Assembly: GCA_036378675.1 (NCBI GenBank)
Contig: DASUWA010000032.1
Coordinates: 1 to 64,000 of the forward strand
Source: Acidimicrobiales bacterium
GTDB lineage: Bacteria; Actinomycetota; Acidimicrobiia; Acidimicrobiales; Palsa-688
Direction of reading: 5' to 3'
DNA: 64,000 bases
The position numbers and the translations under genes were made by a program. Positions 10,961 to 57,332 of this stretch are shown here, piece after piece. The notes beneath the pieces are model-generated. The model was not told the DNA's origin. It did no database searches and saw only the letters and a program-made list of their open reading frames with translations. Numbering within the stretch: the first letter of the stretch is position 1; each line of letters starts with the position of its first letter.

Positions 10961-11306
<346 letters not shown>

Positions 11307-11380
11307 AACCACCATTTTGCCAGACCGGCGGAGTGGGTCGGGGTACGGTCGAGGGACGCCGCCTGGTGGGCCAGACGCGA

Positions 11381-11445
11381 GTTCGGGTGTGGAATCGTGC
11401 GCGATCCGGCCGAATTCCACTCCCAAACGCGAGATTTACGCCCAA
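11381..11445 (-). repeat. 65-bp palindromic element, copy C
   Basis: On the minus strand this starts TTGGGCGT, runs through GCGTTTGGGAGTGG and ends near CACCCGAAC. It aligns without gaps to the copies at 38776-38840 and 56598-56662. It forms an imperfect stem (GGGTGTGGAAT on plus pairs with ATTCCACTCCC). It lies between the RNase P gene and the stop of the MFS gene, in a non-coding gap. Confidence 0.7.
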
Positions 11446-11459
11446 CTCGCTCCGGCCGA

Positions 11460-29675: not shown

Positions 29676-30638
29676 CTAGGCCCGCTCCATCAGCCGGTGA
29701 CGGTCGGCGAAGGCCCTTTCCCGGACGTCGAGAGGCACGCCCAGACGGTCGAGCTCCTCCTCGATCTGGTTCCACACCTCTTCGCGTACGTGTGAGCCGC
29801 ATGCGGCGAGCCGGTCGGCGACGCTGAGCGGGTACGGGTATCCGGGGAAGGCAGCGTCGTCGCAGAGGGCCGACAAAGAAGACAACGCCGGCGCGGGATC
29901 GCAATCCGCAGGCAAGTCGACCCTGAACGAGAAGCGGGCGTCAGGATCCATCCTCGCCACGACAACCTGGATGCCGGCGCCCACATCCGGACGCGTCCGC
30001 GCCACCGGGACCCACCAGCACTGACGCTGTCCCAGTGACTCGTCCGCGATCCGCTCCAGCTGGCCGAGAAGCGGAGCGCCGTTCCACGAAAGTGAGGTGT
30101 GCTTGGTGACGCCGGCGACCAACACCTCGCGCTCCGCCGCCCGGGCCAACAACGACGCCAGCCACGACGAGGGAATCCGCCAATCCGGTTGAAGGTCGCC
30201 GTCCACGAGGACCATTCCGCCCGGGTCCGCCTCTTCCACGCAACGGGCGACCATCGACCATTCCTTCCAGTCCCTCACCAGGTTCACGTCGACAGGAGAG
30301 TCGGGCGAGACCGGAGCCCCCAACGCCGACAAAGATCGCCTTTCCTCGCCCAAACCGAAGAGGAACGCTTGCAGGGTTCCTTCGTCCTCGAGGACCGAGC
30401 TGCCGCCAGTCCAGCGGACGCGGGCCGCTCTGGCCGCGTACACCTGCAGGCACCGGGCGTCGGCGATCAGCGCCTGACCTCCGTCCACCGCCCACACGTC
30501 CATCGGGGCGGACCCACGACCGAGGGGCGACAGCGCGATCCGCTCCTCGAACACCAGATCGGAGCCGGACGGGTCCCGAAGGCCGCTGGCAACCGCACCG
30601 CTGAGCAGTTCTGCGATCCGGGCGCCGGCCGCGCTCAC
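29676..30638 (-). CDS. nurA: NurA-domain 5'-3' nuclease
   Basis: A 320-residue nuclease that works with HerA to resect DNA ends. NurA landmarks are MDVWAVDGGQALIADARC (the metal-binding aspartate after a beta strand), GMVLVDGDLQPDW and GVTKHTSLSWNG, which match the DGS, DG-L and K-T motifs of the family. The C-terminus (VREEVWNQIEEELDRLGVPL) is helical. It ends with four codons formed by a 9-bp repeat. It is divergent from ku; the 165-bp gap holds a tandem repeat array. Sequence divergence from archaeal NurA is high, so motif positions are my reading. Confidence 0.8.
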   Translation of the reverse strand: MSAAGARIAELLSGAVASGLRDPSGSDLVFEERIALSPLGRGSAPMDVWAVDGGQALIADARCLQVYAARAARVRWTGGSSVLEDEGTLQAFLFGLGEERRSLSALGAPVSPDSPVDVNLVRDWKEWSMVARCVEEADPGGMVLVDGDLQPDWRIPSSWLASLLARAAEREVLVAGVTKHTSLSWNGAPLLGQLERIADESLGQRQCWWVPVARTRPDVGAGIQVVVARMDPDARFSFRVDLPADCDPAPALSSLSALCDDAAFPGYPYPLSVADRLAACGSHVREEVWNQIEEELDRLGVPLDVRERAFADRHRLMERA

Positions 30639-30650
30639 GGAGGGGTCAGG

Positions 30651-30768
30651 ATGCCCGCCTTGCGGCTCAAGGAAATGCCCGCCTTGCGGCTCAAGGAAAT
30701 GCCCGCCTTCCGGCGTCAGGATGCCCGCCTTCCGGCGTGAGGAAATGCCCGCCTTCCGGCGTGAGGAT
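30651..30768. repeat. Five-copy 22-24 bp tandem repeat in the nurA/ku divergent promoter
   Basis: Units start at 30651, 30675, 30699, 30721 and 30745 (periods 24, 24, 22, 24). Each has ATGCCCGCCTT followed by GCGGCTCAAGG or CCGGCGTGAGG; a degenerate sixth start is at 30769. GCC-GGAA-GGC on the minus strand is a small hairpin in each of the last three units. The array fills most of the gap between nurA and ku. It could be a protein-binding array or simple slippage. Confidence 0.85.
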
Positions 30769-30803
30769 ATGCAGAGCGTCTGACATCAGGGAAGAATGTT
30801 GTC

Positions 30804-38678: not shown

Positions 38679-38775
38679 GCGTTTTCTTCGTCCGAACTTC
38701 GAGCGGGTGCGCGAACCGTCGCTGGTGGCGGTTCCGCCCCCGCTCGCCGTCGAAAACACCGGCCCGATCCGTGGA

Positions 38776-38840
38776 TTGGGCGTGGAATCTGCGTTTGGGT
38801 GTGGGTTCGGACCGAACCCTGTCGAAATTCACGCCCAAAC
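38776..38840 (+). repeat. 65-bp palindromic element, copy A
   Basis: It starts TTGGGCGTG and ends with CACGCCCAAAC, so its ends are inverted repeats. The centre has the perfect palindrome GGGTTCGG-A-CCGAACCC (38802-38818). It aligns gap-free over 65 bp with the copies at 11381 and 56598. It lies in the 219-bp gap between rubrerythrin and the Fe-S gene, where nothing else was seen. Confidence 0.75.
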
Positions 38841-38897
38841 GGCGGAACCTACCTCCGATGCCTGCGCTTCCGCCTTGGATCCTCTCTGGAGTAGCCG

Positions 38898-45300: not shown

Positions 45301-47201
45301 ATGACGTCGTCGTCACCGACGATGACAACGTTCTTGAGGTTGGTGGGGGTCACTCGGTACGAGTTGATGATGTTCTGTATCGCGGCCGCTTCGAGATCGG
45401 GCGCATAAGGGCAGCCTGGATTCGCTGCTGCCTGGGCCTGAAGGTCGTTGACCATCTGACTCTTGCCGACGTCGACCACGACACCGCCCGTCGCCAGCGC
45501 CAGTTGCTGCAACGGCGTGTACAAGGGGTTCCCCCCGGTGTACGTCTGACCAACGTTGGGCATGAGAGTTGAATCAGCGATTATGACTGTCGAGTAGCTC
45601 GGCCCGCCGGCGCCGCTAATGGTTGGATCGCCAGAGAAGCTGCTCAAGCCGCCGCCACACGGCCCACCCAAGTTCGTCACGGTAAGTGTGTAGGGCGAGA
45701 AGGGCACGAAGGCGCCATTGTTTCCGGTAATTCGGACGTAGAAGTTGCCTGTGTTGTTCCAGGTATTGACGGTGACGGACTTATCCACGGCTCCCGGTGC
45801 TGTCGACACGGCCAACAGGCTGTCGAGCTGCGCGCTTGAGTAAGCGGCCGAGAAGGCCGACGGGCTGAACGCCGACGGGCTGAAAGCGCTGGGTGAGAAT
45901 GCGCTCGGGCTGAATGCCGAAGGTGAGAAGGCAGACGGCGAGAAGGCGCTCGGGCTGAACGCGGACGGGCTGAACGCCGAGGGGCTGAACGCCGAAGGGG
46001 AGAAAGCCGACGGCGACGCGGCGCTGCCGGGCGCTTCCGCTCCTAAAGCGGCGAGGTTAGGCGTCGAATTGTTGAGCGCATTGAAGGCCTGGCTGATATC
46101 CGAGAAGACAGCGATGTTGTAATCGCCAGCAACATTGCTGAGTGAGACCTGAAGTTGCTCTCCGGGGGTGACTGAGAAGTCGTACCAGAGGGCTTCCCCC
46201 TGGAAGTTGAGGGACTGGCTTGCGCCGACCTGGCCCGGAGTGCCGAGGTACTTGGCGGTCAACCACGAAGTGTTGGAATCCTGGGCCGCGGCTGGTGTGA
46301 GCGACACGCCATCGACGAAGTCACCCAAGCTGTTGTCCGGGAAACCCAGGCTGGGGTTTTCCGTGCTGTCGAACTCGATGGCCGCTGTTGTCGCAGTCGC
46401 AGTAACCGCATACTGCGCAACCGTCCAACCTGTACCGCCTTGAAGTCCGCTTCCCGGCTGAGCGCTGCCCACCAAATACGATCCGTTCCACTGCACTGCC
46501 ATCGTGTTGTCAGCCGGACTGGTGTTCGGGCGGGCTTGATATGCGAACTTGAAAATGTACTGCGTCCCGGGAACGGTGGCGACCGTCTGGGTGATGCCGC
46601 TCACGCAGTTGGAGTTGAGCTCCGCGTACTGGTTGCCGTCGAATGGGGTCACACCAACGGTTGCCTGCGTTTGAAGCTCTATCCCGCATCCGTTGGTCGC
46701 TGCCCAGTCCGGGATTCCCGTCGAGAAGTTCGACCAGTTCCCGTTGAAGGTTTCTCCAGGGAAACCATGGCCGATCACTGGCTGCTCGAACGATCCGTTC
46801 GTCGCCACCTGGTTGCTGGTCACGTTCACGTTCACGGGGGGAGCAGACGCAGGGCCCGTTTGCCCCGAGACGGTCTGCTCAGCGGTGAGCGAGTGGTTCC
46901 CCTGCAACAGATTCAGGACGGTGGACCAATTGCCGGTCTCAGAGTCGGCAGTAGCTGTGCCGACCAGGACTCCACCGTCGAGAACGCCGACGGATGCTCC
47001 GGTGGACGCGGTTCCACTCACGGGGACCGTAGGTGTCGCGCTGGAAGCGGGGGCGGTGATGGTCGGTGCCGGCACGCCGCCGTCCGCGAAAGCGGCGGAA
47101 GTTGGTTGCACCAGAAGACTCGTACCGACGATGGTCGATGCAGCCGCGAAAGCTGCCAAGTAGGCAGGGATTCCCCGGCGATAGGTACGAACCGACCTCA
47201 T
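42303..47201 (-). CDS. Giant secreted protein with gingipain-like (peptidase C25) domain and SPSAF repeats
   Basis: A 1632-residue exported protein. It begins with a signal peptide (RGIPAYLAAFAAAS to SAAFADG). Next come a bacterial Ig-like domain, a DUF642-like domain (ATNGSFEQPVIGHGFPG) and a pre-peptidase C-terminal-like domain. Eleven SPSAF repeats lie at residues 394-450. The caspase-fold peptidase follows: His783 in FLAAHFSANN and Cys821 in LGAGCHAGYN form the C25 dyad, with VVIVGDDDVIPFFRYPD upstream. Then come Ig-like domains and a C-terminal region rich in SLTINSGQLVLITG-type beta-helix strands. No sorting signal or membrane anchor is seen. Catalytic activity is inferred. Confidence 0.8.
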   Translation of the reverse strand: MRSVRTYRRGIPAYLAAFAAASTIVGTSLLVQPTSAAFADGGVPAPTITAPASSATPTVPVSGTASTGASVGVLDGGVLVGTATADSETGNWSTVLNLLQGNHSLTAEQTVSGQTGPASAPPVNVNVTSNQVATNGSFEQPVIGHGFPGETFNGNWSNFSTGIPDWAATNGCGIELQTQATVGVTPFDGNQYAELNSNCVSGITQTVATVPGTQYIFKFAYQARPNTSPADNTMAVQWNGSYLVGSAQPGSGLQGGTGWTVAQYAVTATATTAAIEFDSTENPSLGFPDNSLGDFVDGVSLTPAAAQDSNTSWLTAKYLGTPGQVGASQSLNFQGEALWYDFSVTPGEQLQVSLSNVAGDYNIAVFSDISQAFNALNNSTPNLAALGAEAPGSAASPSAFSPSAFSPSAFSPSAFSPSAFSPSAFSPSAFSPSAFSPSAFSPSAFSPSAFSAAYSSAQLDSLLAVSTAPGAVDKSVTVNTWNNTGNFYVRITGNNGAFVPFSPYTLTVTNLGGPCGGGLSSFSGDPTISGAGGPSYSTVIIADSTLMPNVGQTYTGGNPLYTPLQQLALATGGVVVDVGKSQMVNDLQAQAAANPGCPYAPDLEAAAIQNIINSYRVTPTNLKNVVIVGDDDVIPFFRYPDNAGLAGESNYQPPLLSTSSPEAALVNNYYVSDDQYGAANQLTIQGVTVPLSTAAVGRLVQTPADILATVNNYLGGARTISPTSSLSVGYDFMGPPATQVASAFQSGIGGTNNSTLINNGWTASNLQSALFGSHHDLAFLAAHFSANNLLAADQATTMTTNQFATLVGTTLRNSLVLGAGCHAGYNIDPADAIPGVTDPLAWPQTFAQAGSTLIAGSGYQYGDTNYVAYSDQLYVDIAQQLGYQPSSGPGPVPVGLAMLAAKQKYLAGVVHLGGIEEKALLETTLYGLPMIGVQEPHQAPAPGGSASVATASPVDPNPPNPPNPANLLGLQQANIDFSGFSLSPTTVTPPGSNTSFTYDSGAQGVTAAPGGPVLPVQTYNVNVTNETLRGVGFVSGNYTDTTGTNPLTGDPATETGNPQVVPFGSPVFFPQTTWNPNYFGTLLNGGDTELALTPVQYMSDSNGASTDTMRTFSDEGLRLFYSNNTQKYGANTPALAAPPTVSNVTGSISGNTVTFSANVTGDLSAGIQDVWVTYTGLPGDPNHGKWQSLDLTQNASDSTLWTAQMSFPNPSGIVFMVQAVNGVGEVSMDNNNGYYFTPGVTVGAVVQNLTPHTLALSGGTSGTFLSSATVSATLSPGLTNAPITFDLGPSSVTAPTNSSGVATATIPLIEPPGTYTLTASFAGDASDQPAAAHESFQISKAATSLTLSPPTGQISFGVNSGAKATLTSGGTPLAQKAVYFVISQSGTPIGASVGITNSKGVAQAGIINFVPGTGAGGYSLTAYFGSSTTPLPGGTYNATDPDYLASTSSAASVNVTAFTQVISGTRSGSLTINSGQLVLITGHVTSSVTVNSGGGLEVYGGSISGAVSSNGAVVFILCNATLGSSLSVNGSTGFVFIGGGMGTGCAPSSVGGTTTLSKNTDGVEIANTSVNGSLTVSNNTGPTSSNSGLPAEPEVAGDSIAGSLSCDKNQPGVTNANQPNTASSKSGQCAAL
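45855..46019 (-). repeat. Eleven 15-bp tandem repeats coding SPSAF pentapeptides
   Basis: Eleven units of 15 bp, each a variant of CTGAACGCCGACGGG or GAGAAGGCNGACGGC on the plus strand, encode SPSAF in the giant protein. Synonymous changes vary freely while the peptide stays constant, so the repeat is under protein-level selection. The block sits within the pre-peptidase-like domain. Confidence 0.9.
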
Positions 47202-51390: not shown

Positions 51391-51410
51391 GGCCGTCGAG
51401 GCTATCTCTT

Positions 51411-51473
51411 GGTCGAAAGGTGCAGGCCCTTGGTCGGAAGGTGCAGGCCCTTGGTCGGAAGGTGCAGGCCCTT
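51411..51473. repeat. Three 21-bp tandem repeats between the Lrp-domain and NYN genes
   Basis: Three units (51411-51431, 51432-51452, 51453-51473) begin GGTCGGAAGGTGCAG, or GGTCGAAAGG in the first, and end GGCCCTT. They lie 20 bp upstream of the Lrp-domain start on one side and 64 bp upstream of the NYN start on the other, so they occupy a shared promoter region. No spacers are seen. Confidence 0.85.
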
Positions 51474-51536
51474 CGTTCGAACTGCGCCGGCCTTGTCCTG
51501 CGCCGGAAACTGGCTCGCGCCGATACGATCCCCCGG

Positions 51537-54719: not shown

Positions 54720-54814
54720 GAAGTAGCAAGCAGGATCCCCCAGCACATACGCCGCAAGCTGCTACTTTGCCCCAGAAGAGCCCGAACGGCGGGCTCAGCG
54801 CGCCGGGGGCGCCT

Positions 54815-56023
54815 GTGCGACAGCTCCACATCGTCGGATTGACCTCGGACCACGATGGGCTGATACTCGCGGGCCGCCGCGGCGCAAAGAACGGCAACTT
54901 CGTCATCAAGCTCGATGATGATCTGCTCGAACAGATCGAAGAGGCCCGGCTGGCAAGGATCGATGACCTGCCTGCCGCGCCCGCTGCTCCGCCACCACCT
55001 CCCCGACAGCGAGTTGAAAGCGCCCTCAGCCCGCGTGAGATGCAGATGCGGCTGCGCGGGGGAAGAACGGTGGCGCAAGTTGCCGCCGAAGCAGGCGTCG
55101 ATATCGAATGGGTGGAACGGTTTGCCGCTCCGGTTCTCGCCGAGCAGGCCGCGGCGATCGGACGCGCTCAGGAGTTGGTACTGCACACGCCGAGACGAGG
55201 GCAGTCCGATCGGCCTCTCGCTCCGTCGATCAGGCGCAATCTCGCGGATCGCGGAATCCTTCTCTTGGAAGAAGAGTTCGACTCGGCGTGGTCCGCATTC
55301 CAGCTCGGCGACAGCGAGTGGATTATTCGCTTCCGCTACCACGCCAGAGGACGCGATCAGCAAGCCGAGTACCTTCTTGAAACGGTGGCGGGAAGCCTGA
55401 TCCCGAACAACCGGCTTGGCACCGAACTCGGCTACGTGGATCCGGGCCGGCACGCGCCGGCGGTTCGGGAGCTTCCTCCGATGCGAGTTCGTAGTTCGAA
55501 GACGGGTCCAGCAAAGAAGACCGTTGCGGAGAAGGCTGCCGTCAAGAAATCTGCCGCCCGAAAGACTGTTGCCAAGAAGCGGGCGACGCCGGCGAAGAAG
55601 TCAGCGCCGCCTCGCAAGGTCGCGCGGCCGGCGACCCGCCGCCCAGCCAAATCCTCGTCGAGTTCGAAGAAGCGCCTGCCCGCCAAGACGGCCAGAGCAG
55701 CCAGCAAGGCGGCAAGCGGGAAAGCGGCGACCCGCAAAGTGGTGCCGTCCAAGCGGACCGCCGGCGCACGCAAGTCGGCAGCAACCCGGAAGGCCCCGGT
55801 CACCAAGAAAGCCGCGCGCGCCAAGAAGGCGAGTCCTACCAGGAAGGCCGCGGGAGCCAAGAGGGCCGGGAGGCCAAGAAAGGCGACGTCCGCCAAGCGG
55901 GCCGGGATCAGCCCAAACGTCCCCCGCGTACGCCCGCTCCGCGCCCATCGGGTAGAAACGGGCGGTGCCCGAAACGGCTCGACCCACGGTGTCCGCGCCC
56001 TCCAGCTCCGCGCAGCTCGCTGA
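54815..56023 (+). CDS. sepH: Septation protein SepH with histone-H1-like tail
   Basis: A 402-residue actinobacterial division protein. The N-terminal DUF3071 domain starts at RQLHIVGLTSDHDGLILAG and contains a helix-turn-helix region (GRTVAQVAAEAGVDIEWVE). SepH binds FtsZ and aids filament assembly. After residue about 225 the protein turns into a long Lys/Ala/Pro region with KKSAARKTVAKKRA-type repeats, like histone H1. GTG 54815 gives the normal N-terminus. Its 3' end overlaps queG by 59 bp. The tail is unusually long here. Confidence 0.85.
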   Translation: MRQLHIVGLTSDHDGLILAGRRGAKNGNFVIKLDDDLLEQIEEARLARIDDLPAAPAAPPPPPRQRVESALSPREMQMRLRGGRTVAQVAAEAGVDIEWVERFAAPVLAEQAAAIGRAQELVLHTPRRGQSDRPLAPSIRRNLADRGILLLEEEFDSAWSAFQLGDSEWIIRFRYHARGRDQQAEYLLETVAGSLIPNNRLGTELGYVDPGRHAPAVRELPPMRVRSSKTGPAKKTVAEKAAVKKSAARKTVAKKRATPAKKSAPPRKVARPATRRPAKSSSSSKKRLPAKTARAASKAASGKAATRKVVPSKRTAGARKSAATRKAPVTKKAARAKKASPTRKAAGAKRAGRPRKATSAKRAGISPNVPRVRPLRAHRVETGGARNGSTHGVRALQLRAAR

Positions 56024-57332
56024 TCTCGCCGATCTCGCGGATCTCGCCAGCGAGCTTCGCCGGCTGGGAAAGCGAGCCGGGCTCGACGCCGTCGGCGTCT
56101 GCGACGCGGCTCCGTTCGAAGAGGCTCGGGCGGCACTGAACAACGGGCGCCTGCGCGGCTGGGACGCCGGCATGCAATTCACCTATCGCAATCCGGCTCG
56201 ATCAACGGACCCATCGCGGGCGCTTCCCGGTGCGCGGGCCATAGTCGTCGGCGCGCTCACGTATGCGAGACAGCCGCCGGCGCCTCCCGACAGGCAACAA
56301 TCCCACGATAAATCCCGCCCCAAAGGACTGGTGGCTCGTTACGCGTGGGAGGACCACTACGGCACCTTGCGAGGGGCCCTGAACCAGGTGGCCGACCGGC
56401 TCCGCGCGGACGGTTGGCGTGCAGCCGTCCTTGTCGACGACAACGCACTGGTCGACCGCGCGGCAGCCGTCCGCGCAGGCCTCGGCTGGTACGGCAAGAA
56501 CACCAACGTCCTCATCCCCGGCGCCGGGTCATGCTTCGTGCTCGGCTCGGTTGTCACTGACGCTCCGCTCCGCGCCAACGAGCCAGAGCGGGGCGGTTTG
56601 GGTGGTGATTCGTCGTTCGGGAGTGGAAATCGACCGAATACCGACGAAAGTCACGCCCAAAAGGCAGACCCACACCCAAACGAAGCCCGCAAGTGCCGGA
56701 TCGGTGCCACTACCGGCCCCACCACCCGCACGCCGGGCCCAGTCGAAGACGGTTGTGGTGCATGCCGGCGCTGCATCGACGCTTGCCCGACGGGCGCGCT
56801 CACTCACGACGAGCCCGGCCATCTCGACGCGAACAAGTGCCTCGCGTGGCTTGTCCAGGCGCCGGGAATCTTCCCGCGGCAATACCGCATCGCACTACAC
56901 GACCGGATGTACGGATGCGACGACTGCCAGGAGGCCTGCCCGATCAACCGTCTCGCGGAACGCCGTCAGGCGCCACCCGAACCGGCCCAAGACGCTCTCA
57001 CCGGGGTCGACATCCTCTACATCCTCGAAGCTCCAGACCGCGAACTTCTGAACAAGCTCGGCAGGTGGTACATCCCCAACCGCGATGCGAAGTACTTGCG
57101 GAGGAACGCGCTCATAGTTCTAGGCAACACCGGCGACGCAACATCGCCAAGGATAAAGGGTGCGATCGAGCGCGCCATCGCGGACGCAGACCCGATCATC
57201 CGGACGCACGCGGTCTGGGCCGCGGCGCGCCTCGGCTACAACGACCTGATCCCATCGAGAGACAATGACCCGCAAGTTCAAGACGAGATAGACGCAGCGG
57301 CAACGATCCACTCGAGGACGGTCCACGCGTGA
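55965..57332 (+). CDS. queG: Epoxyqueuosine reductase with in-frame palindromic insert
   Basis: A 455-residue cobalamin- and Fe-S-dependent enzyme that makes queuosine from epoxyqueuosine in tRNA. Fe-S cysteines are CGACRRCIDACPTGAL and CDDCQEACPINRL, and a HEAT-like C-terminus (IKGAIERAIADADPIIRTHA) binds tRNA. The catalytic-region segments VLVDDNALVDRAAAVRAGLG and WYGKNTNVLIP are intact. An insertion of about 40 residues follows VVTDAPLRANEPE; it contains the 65-bp element (56598-56662) and then resumes at PVEDGCG. The N-terminus holds three 9-bp repeats (LADLADLADLA). GTG 55965 overlaps sepH. Confidence 0.88.
   Translation: MPETARPTVSAPSSSAQLADLADLADLASELRRLGKRAGLDAVGVCDAAPFEEARAALNNGRLRGWDAGMQFTYRNPARSTDPSRALPGARAIVVGALTYARQPPAPPDRQQSHDKSRPKGLVARYAWEDHYGTLRGALNQVADRLRADGWRAAVLVDDNALVDRAAAVRAGLGWYGKNTNVLIPGAGSCFVLGSVVTDAPLRANEPERGGLGGDSSFGSGNRPNTDESHAQKADPHPNEARKCRIGATTGPTTRTPGPVEDGCGACRRCIDACPTGALTHDEPGHLDANKCLAWLVQAPGIFPRQYRIALHDRMYGCDDCQEACPINRLAERRQAPPEPAQDALTGVDILYILEAPDRELLNKLGRWYIPNRDAKYLRRNALIVLGNTGDATSPRIKGAIERAIADADPIIRTHAVWAAARLGYNDLIPSRDNDPQVQDEIDAAATIHSRTVHA
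56598..56662 (+). repeat. 65-bp palindromic element, copy B (inside queG)
   Basis: Starts TTGGGTGGTGATTCG and ends CACGCCCAAAA. GATTCGTCG pairs with CGACGAAAGTC in a long stem. It aligns gap-free over 65 bp with the intergenic copies at 11381 and 38776. In queG it is read in frame as about 22 residues rich in Gly, Ser and Asp. Confidence 0.75.

Follow-up and report, generated by a model that had tools for sequence, protein, structure and literature searches.

The 64,000-nucleotide stretch of an Acidimicrobiales genome analysed here (the window) contains a gene for epoxyqueuosine reductase, queG, with a palindromic repeat inside its coding sequence (Table 1). The QueG product scored 227 bits against TIGR00276 (cutoff, 200), and its Fe-S cysteines and the other family-invariant residues are all retained. 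These residues, together with a queA homologue found above its curated cutoff in the same genome, make it plausible that the queuosine pathway is active in the host. QueG matches from named organisms assign the lineage to Acidimicrobiia. The original prediction had proposed a palindromic repeat lying in frame within queG, with reading frame and cysteine motifs intact. This was borne out: the 455-aa frame is uninterrupted, the Fe-S cysteines are present, and the repeat recurs far beyond chance, with 39 copies in the genome. The gene preceding queG (54767-56023) encodes a SepH-like DUF3071 domain followed by an extended tail that is rich in Lys, Ala, and Arg, resembles histone H1, and matches HC2 weakly, below the cutoff. 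Elsewhere in the window, ten 15-bp tandem units (45852-46037, minus strand) encode SPSAF pentapeptide repeats in a 1632-aa secreted-type protein, and short direct repeats lie at 30618-30781 (period 22-24 bp) and 51408-51481 (period 21 bp). An Rfam scan of the window returned RNase P only.

Table 1. Positions in the window of queG, its linker, the palindromic element with its boxes, and the two further copies
Feature	Position	Strand	Remarks
queG, epoxyqueuosine reductase, 455 aa	55965..57332	+	reading frame uninterrupted across the element
Expanded linker, about residues 205-258	56577..56738	+	between cobalamin-binding part and Fe-S domain; short in relatives; mostly disordered in AlphaFold model
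Palindromic element, 86 bp, architecture A-B-loop-b-a	56596..56681	+	codes for residues 211-239; ends GTTTGGG / CCCAAAC
Box A (outer 5' box), GTTTGGGTGGTGATTCGTC	56596..56614	+	
Box B (inner 5' box), GTTCGGGAGTGGAAATCG	56615..56632	+	
Box b (inner 3' box, inverted), + strand reads CGAAAGTCACGCCCAAA	56645..56661	-	
Box a (outer 3' box, inverted), + strand reads GACCCACACCCAAAC	56667..56681	-	half-element pattern match 56652-56680
Second window copy, intergenic	38773..38859	+	94 bp past stop of rubrerythrin-like gene
Third window copy	11363..11447	+	about 60 bp upstream of RNase P RNA gene (10961-11301, - strand)

The element in queG (56596-56681) reads GTTTGGGTGGTGATTCGTCGTTCGGGAGTGGAAATCGACCGAATACCGACGAAAGTCACGCCCAAAAGGCAGACCCACACCCAAAC. 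It had been predicted to measure 65 bp and to encode residues about 212-233; that span proved to be the inner part of an 86-bp element that covers residues 211-239. A repeat search returned inverted arms at 56596-56625 and 56652-56681, and a covariance model of the family matched 56595-56681 with an E value of 3.8e-18. All four boxes are present, and the core (56616-56661) has zero mismatches. Folded as DNA, the element reached z = -3.67, with 0 of 200 shuffles as good, and its RNA folding energy was also better than that of all 200 shuffles. A 21-mer taken from it, with up to three mismatches allowed, has two matches in the window, against an expectation of 0.00. The downstream remainder of the linker (56682-56738) is single-copy; a longer repeat unit taking in 56680-56745 was rejected because that stretch, too, occurs once.

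We aligned QueG from relatives, the check suggested with the original prediction, and found the insert missing from every aligned protein, in the family and among the order relatives compared. The refuting condition set with that prediction, an insert present in all related QueGs with unrelated nucleotide sequence, was thus not observed, in favour of the prediction. From DAPL to PVEDGCG, the linker is 56 residues long, compared with 20 in the nearest relative (G007, where the region reads DAPIEVAEPLATERPTPGDSRTPGPVVDGCG) and between a few and about a dozen in the remaining proteins; the insertion had been estimated at about 40 residues. In Bacillus subtilis QueG (PDB 5d08), the two halves are joined directly. 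At about 60% protein identity, the nearest relative gives no more than an approximate empty site. Its 20-residue linker, set beside the shorter or direct junctions elsewhere, suggests that the element entered a queG linker that had already lengthened in this branch. Compared with the nearest relative, the gene is longer by a net 108 nt; the element accounts for 86 of these, and ~22 nt more changed outside it. The 19 single-copy residues behind the element are also extra. The earlier argument that extra bases must have kept the frame had been built on the inner 65 bp only; 86 is not a multiple of 3 either. An AlphaFold model of QueG (25-sequence alignment) gave pLDDT values mostly above 90 outside residues 210-256 and below 50 within them, and the top ten structural matches to the model were all solved QueG chains (10/10). 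The QueG fold is thus predicted to stay intact, with the element-coded stretch forming a disordered surface loop, and we infer that the enzyme retains its activity despite the insert.

We built the covariance model from 11 diverged copies, which had been found by DNA and pattern searches of the whole genome, and used it to search all 4.14 Mb of this 97%-complete draft (75 contigs). The search yielded 39 distinct full-length loci. All share one geometry: two direct boxes of ~18 bp, a loop, and the same boxes inverted. Copies are 85-89 bp long, apart from one of 79 bp, and a typical 88-bp copy has TGGG at positions 4 and 24 and CCCA at 62 and 81. Pairwise identity between copies has a median of 63% and a maximum of 81%, so that near-identical young copies are absent among the 39. 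Only the boxes and their tails are conserved. The inner core boxes are 78-80% identical between copies, the 3' outer box 66%, and the 5' outer box, the least conserved of the four, 52%; box tails and the short b-a spacer reach 48-51%, and the loop (30%) and the A-B spacer (33%) are at chance level. We also observed, across the 39 copies, that the two facing boxes of an element disagree at the variable base of GGGNGTG more often than chance.

A 46-bp core pattern, searched genome-wide with up to three mismatches, gave 37 matches, every one a family member, distributed as 18, 14, 5, and 0 at zero, one, two, and three mismatches, i.e., with no decayed tail. Likewise, all 35 genome-wide matches of a half-element pattern fell within the family, and the draft genome contained no isolated or truncated half-elements that would hint at a parent insertion sequence. 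Both patterns were derived from the same copies; nevertheless, the searches cover the whole genome within three mismatches, so the missing decayed or truncated copies are informative. The genome gave 0 matches to the Y1 transposase family (PF01797), for which 5 of 14 control genomes were positive. Matches of 4-9 bp between the two flanks, as target-site duplications would leave, were no commoner than in shuffled pairs, and old copies could have lost such duplications.

The placement of copies is strongly biased. Gaps that hold copies are tandem in 22 cases, convergent in 12, and divergent in 1, compared with 31, 2, and 13 for the other gaps of the same loci (convergent versus divergent, Fisher p = 7e-5; gene calls from a simple codon-usage gene caller). 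A stop codon adjoins 36 of the 37 copies outside confirmed coding sequence, at a median distance of 34.5 bp; these 37 include two copies, L110 and L126, that overlap predicted gene starts, which are probably miscalled. Only 2 of 39 copies lie clearly inside ORFs, one in queG and the other at locus L124.

The L124 copy (G000:C53:699-786) lies within a 664-residue stop-free frame that encodes a xanthine-dehydrogenase-type protein with 2Fe-2S domains and a molybdopterin-binding region, the latter below Pfam's cutoff. As in QueG, the copy occupies a linker that is shorter in relatives (about 19 residues in G007), where the element is absent. The two in-gene copies agree in the strand and register that are translated and have FG..N......SH.Q.....PN in common, and this second case strengthens the idea of a palindrome carried in frame. 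The apparent frame preference is suggestive only, because other frames are also largely open: per frame of the element's + strand, 26-27 of the 39 copies are free of stops, compared with 36% for shuffles. The L124 linker (699-786 and the following codons) comprises the element plus Ser/Pro-rich tandem repeats.

The same 87-88-bp design, with different boxes, occurs at other loci in further genera of the family, for example with TTCTTGGAGTG in G008 and TTCTCGGTGCG in G002 and G025. Judged by flanking genes, none of the element loci compared was common to this genus and G008 or the other relatives; G002 and G025, which belong to one genus, appear to share a site, and G002 has two copies that are 83% alike over 198 bp. 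One design, with different boxes at unshared loci, argues that the design is common to the family while the boxes change in sequence from genus to genus and sites come and go. In G008, two copies (L081 and L090) run into the ends of predicted ORFs, to which they may contribute C-terminal residues. When 268 kb of G007 were scanned de novo for four-box arrangements, nothing rose above the shuffled background; a reversed-sequence control was disregarded, since reversing a sequence preserves its symmetry. An order-wide search of 298 genomes, in which few candidates were scored per genome and which was therefore not exhaustive, returned only three, all from the same family. Two exact pattern matches in a viral collection were taken as chance in AT-rich, phage-like DNA, and the element model had no match there.

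In-frame palindromic inserts have been documented for Rickettsia palindromic elements (RPEs), ERIC, the short Correia element, and tagged REPs (PMC10969869, PMC2229807, PMC3733652). RPEs are 105-150 bp long, form several families, and in R. conorii have nearly half of their copies inside ORFs (PMC10969869, PMC2229807). Like an RPE, the element described here is a dispersed palindrome found in frame in unrelated genes for conserved proteins (QueG and the xanthine-dehydrogenase type), adds an apparently tolerated peptide segment, and uses one register in both in-gene copies. Unlike RPEs, it measures 79-89 bp in all 39 copies, has a four-box design, lies in ORFs in 2 of 39 cases, is strongly biased toward 3' flanks, and resides in an unrelated host. 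The likeness to RPEs drawn in the original prediction is therefore apt for an in-frame palindrome that adds a protein segment and does not extend to kinship, given the size, four-box design, scarcity in genes, and 3'-end location. The element works in an RPE-like way and, on the features compared, belongs to a separate family, set apart by length, design, host, and distribution.

ERIC, Correia/NEMIS, and other MITE-like repeats have terminal inverted repeats and, in many cases, target duplications and TA ends (PMC10969869, PMC2229807). With ERIC and Correia/NEMIS, the family shares imperfect palindromes of about 100 bp, tens of copies, a mostly intergenic and partly 3' location, and occasional in-frame copies; with MITEs, it shares short length, terminal inverted repeats, and the lack of a transposase gene. 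In contrast to all of these, target duplications were not detected, and boxes are conserved next to a loop and an A-B spacer at chance level. REPs are 20-40 bp long and carry GTAG or CGTC tags, those of the GTAG type being associated with Y1 transposases (PMC3733652, PMC3116915). REPs, REPINs, and BIMEs resemble our family in that they pair short palindromic modules in inverted orientation, lie in 3' flanks, and include some intragenic copies; they differ in that the unit here is 88 bp with GTTTGGG/CCCAAAC ends, no GTAG/CGTC tag is present, and the genome encodes no PF01797 protein. Integron attC sites, which have core sites GTTRRRY / RYYYAAC and form cassette arrays, likewise contain two nested inverted box pairs around a variable centre, with mismatched stem positions. 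However, the ends GTTTGGG / CCCAAAC misfit these core sites, the boxes exceed those of attC in length and have a spacing of about 20 bp, and the copies are scattered. The literature searched held no description of this element family, which is not proof of absence.

The position of copies past stop codons could suit an element that acts as RNA, i.e., a hairpin at mRNA 3' ends serving as terminator or stabiliser, with the queG copy simply misplaced. Most copies do fold as RNA better than shuffles (mean z -3.7; 32 of 39 below -2). We nevertheless regard this explanation as improbable. Across the palindrome, pairing between box positions is no more frequent than column composition would give, and weak covariation is confined to a few positions near the loop. 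At the variable base of GGGNGTG, the pairing frequency is 0.14, compared with 0.34 in shuffles and below every one of 1000. Furthermore, no U-tract is evident in the listed flanks, and the 3' outer box has persisted despite the degeneration of its partner. Boxes conserved without excess pairing point to recognition of their sequence as DNA by a putative binding protein, rather than to an RNA hairpin, as the selected feature. Less probable still is a coincidental likeness to the repeat, with the insert in queG arising from ordinary expansion of the linker or from an assembly artefact. The linker is variable (20 aa in the nearest relative) and includes extra single-copy residues, but the full-length queG copy, with every box, a perfect core, and its covariance-model E value, excludes coincidence, and the intact frame and cysteines make an assembly error unlikely.

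We favour, with a probability of about two in three, the view that queG carries one copy of a ~88-bp palindromic repeat, non-autonomous and specific to the lineage, that was dispersed long ago and is tolerated in the QueG linker. Its four boxes, two direct and two inverted, would be recognised as DNA by a putative protein; copies would have been dispersed over evolutionary time, probably by an enzyme acting in trans, and would have survived where harmless, chiefly just behind stop codons. One copy would have entered the already loose queG linker that separates the cobalamin-binding part from the Fe-S part. Stop codons are few in the element and the net change in length is divisible by three, so that the element would be translated as a disordered surface loop with the enzyme core preserved. 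The 39 copies with fixed box spacing favour such a dispersed repeat, as does the bias toward 3' ends and convergent gaps, which is seen in many mobile palindromes. Further support comes from the lack of the insert in all aligned relatives, the AlphaFold model, the second in-frame copy, the scarcity of stops on the element's + strand, the absence of a locus common to this genus and G008 among those compared, and the published in-frame palindromic repeats. The lack of a Y1 transposase, of target-site duplications, and of young copies counts against this view, and the empty site is known only approximately. An old neutral repeat should also have decayed evenly, yet the boxes are kept, the loop and A-B spacer are at chance level, and no remnants are found.

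The conservation pattern would also fit if the elements were working four-box binding arrays for a lineage-specific putative protein, selected locus by locus for a role in 3'-end formation, transcription termination, chromosome structure, or the like, with the queG copy translated by happenstance. The contrast between core boxes (78-80% identical) and loop (30%), the core mismatch distribution without a decayed tail or truncated halves, the rigid spacing, and the conservation of boxes as sequence and not through pairing all agree with this possibility. So do the same geometry with other boxes in sister genera, the strict placement past stop codons, and the retention of all four boxes in queG. 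However, no locus among those compared is common to this genus and G008, which makes the sites unstable over genera, and selection at the level of the element, with only good-box copies mobilised, could yield equal box conservation. We hold it to be possible and clearly less probable than the dispersed, tolerated repeat. In a fuller and similarly tentative form, the 39 elements may be binding arrays of a putative DNA-binding protein of one Acidimicrobiia family; the protein and its four boxes would drift together between genera while the 20-38-19 bp geometry stays nearly fixed, and sites would be selected just behind genes and relocate between genera, two of them having become in-frame segments. 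If so, one stretch of DNA would be site and coding sequence at once.

With conserved boxes, a scrambled loop and A-B spacer, and no remnants, the family makes it possible to address whether palindromes of this kind are selfish DNA or serve as working sites. Rickettsia and Wolbachia are the best-known hosts of in-frame palindromic repeats, and isolated examples come from enteric bacteria and Neisseria. An uncultured soil actinobacterial lineage now joins them, in which 2 of 39 copies can clearly be counted as in frame. The tolerant position that the two in-frame copies share is the interdomain linker of iron-sulfur enzymes, of which QueG is a testable example.
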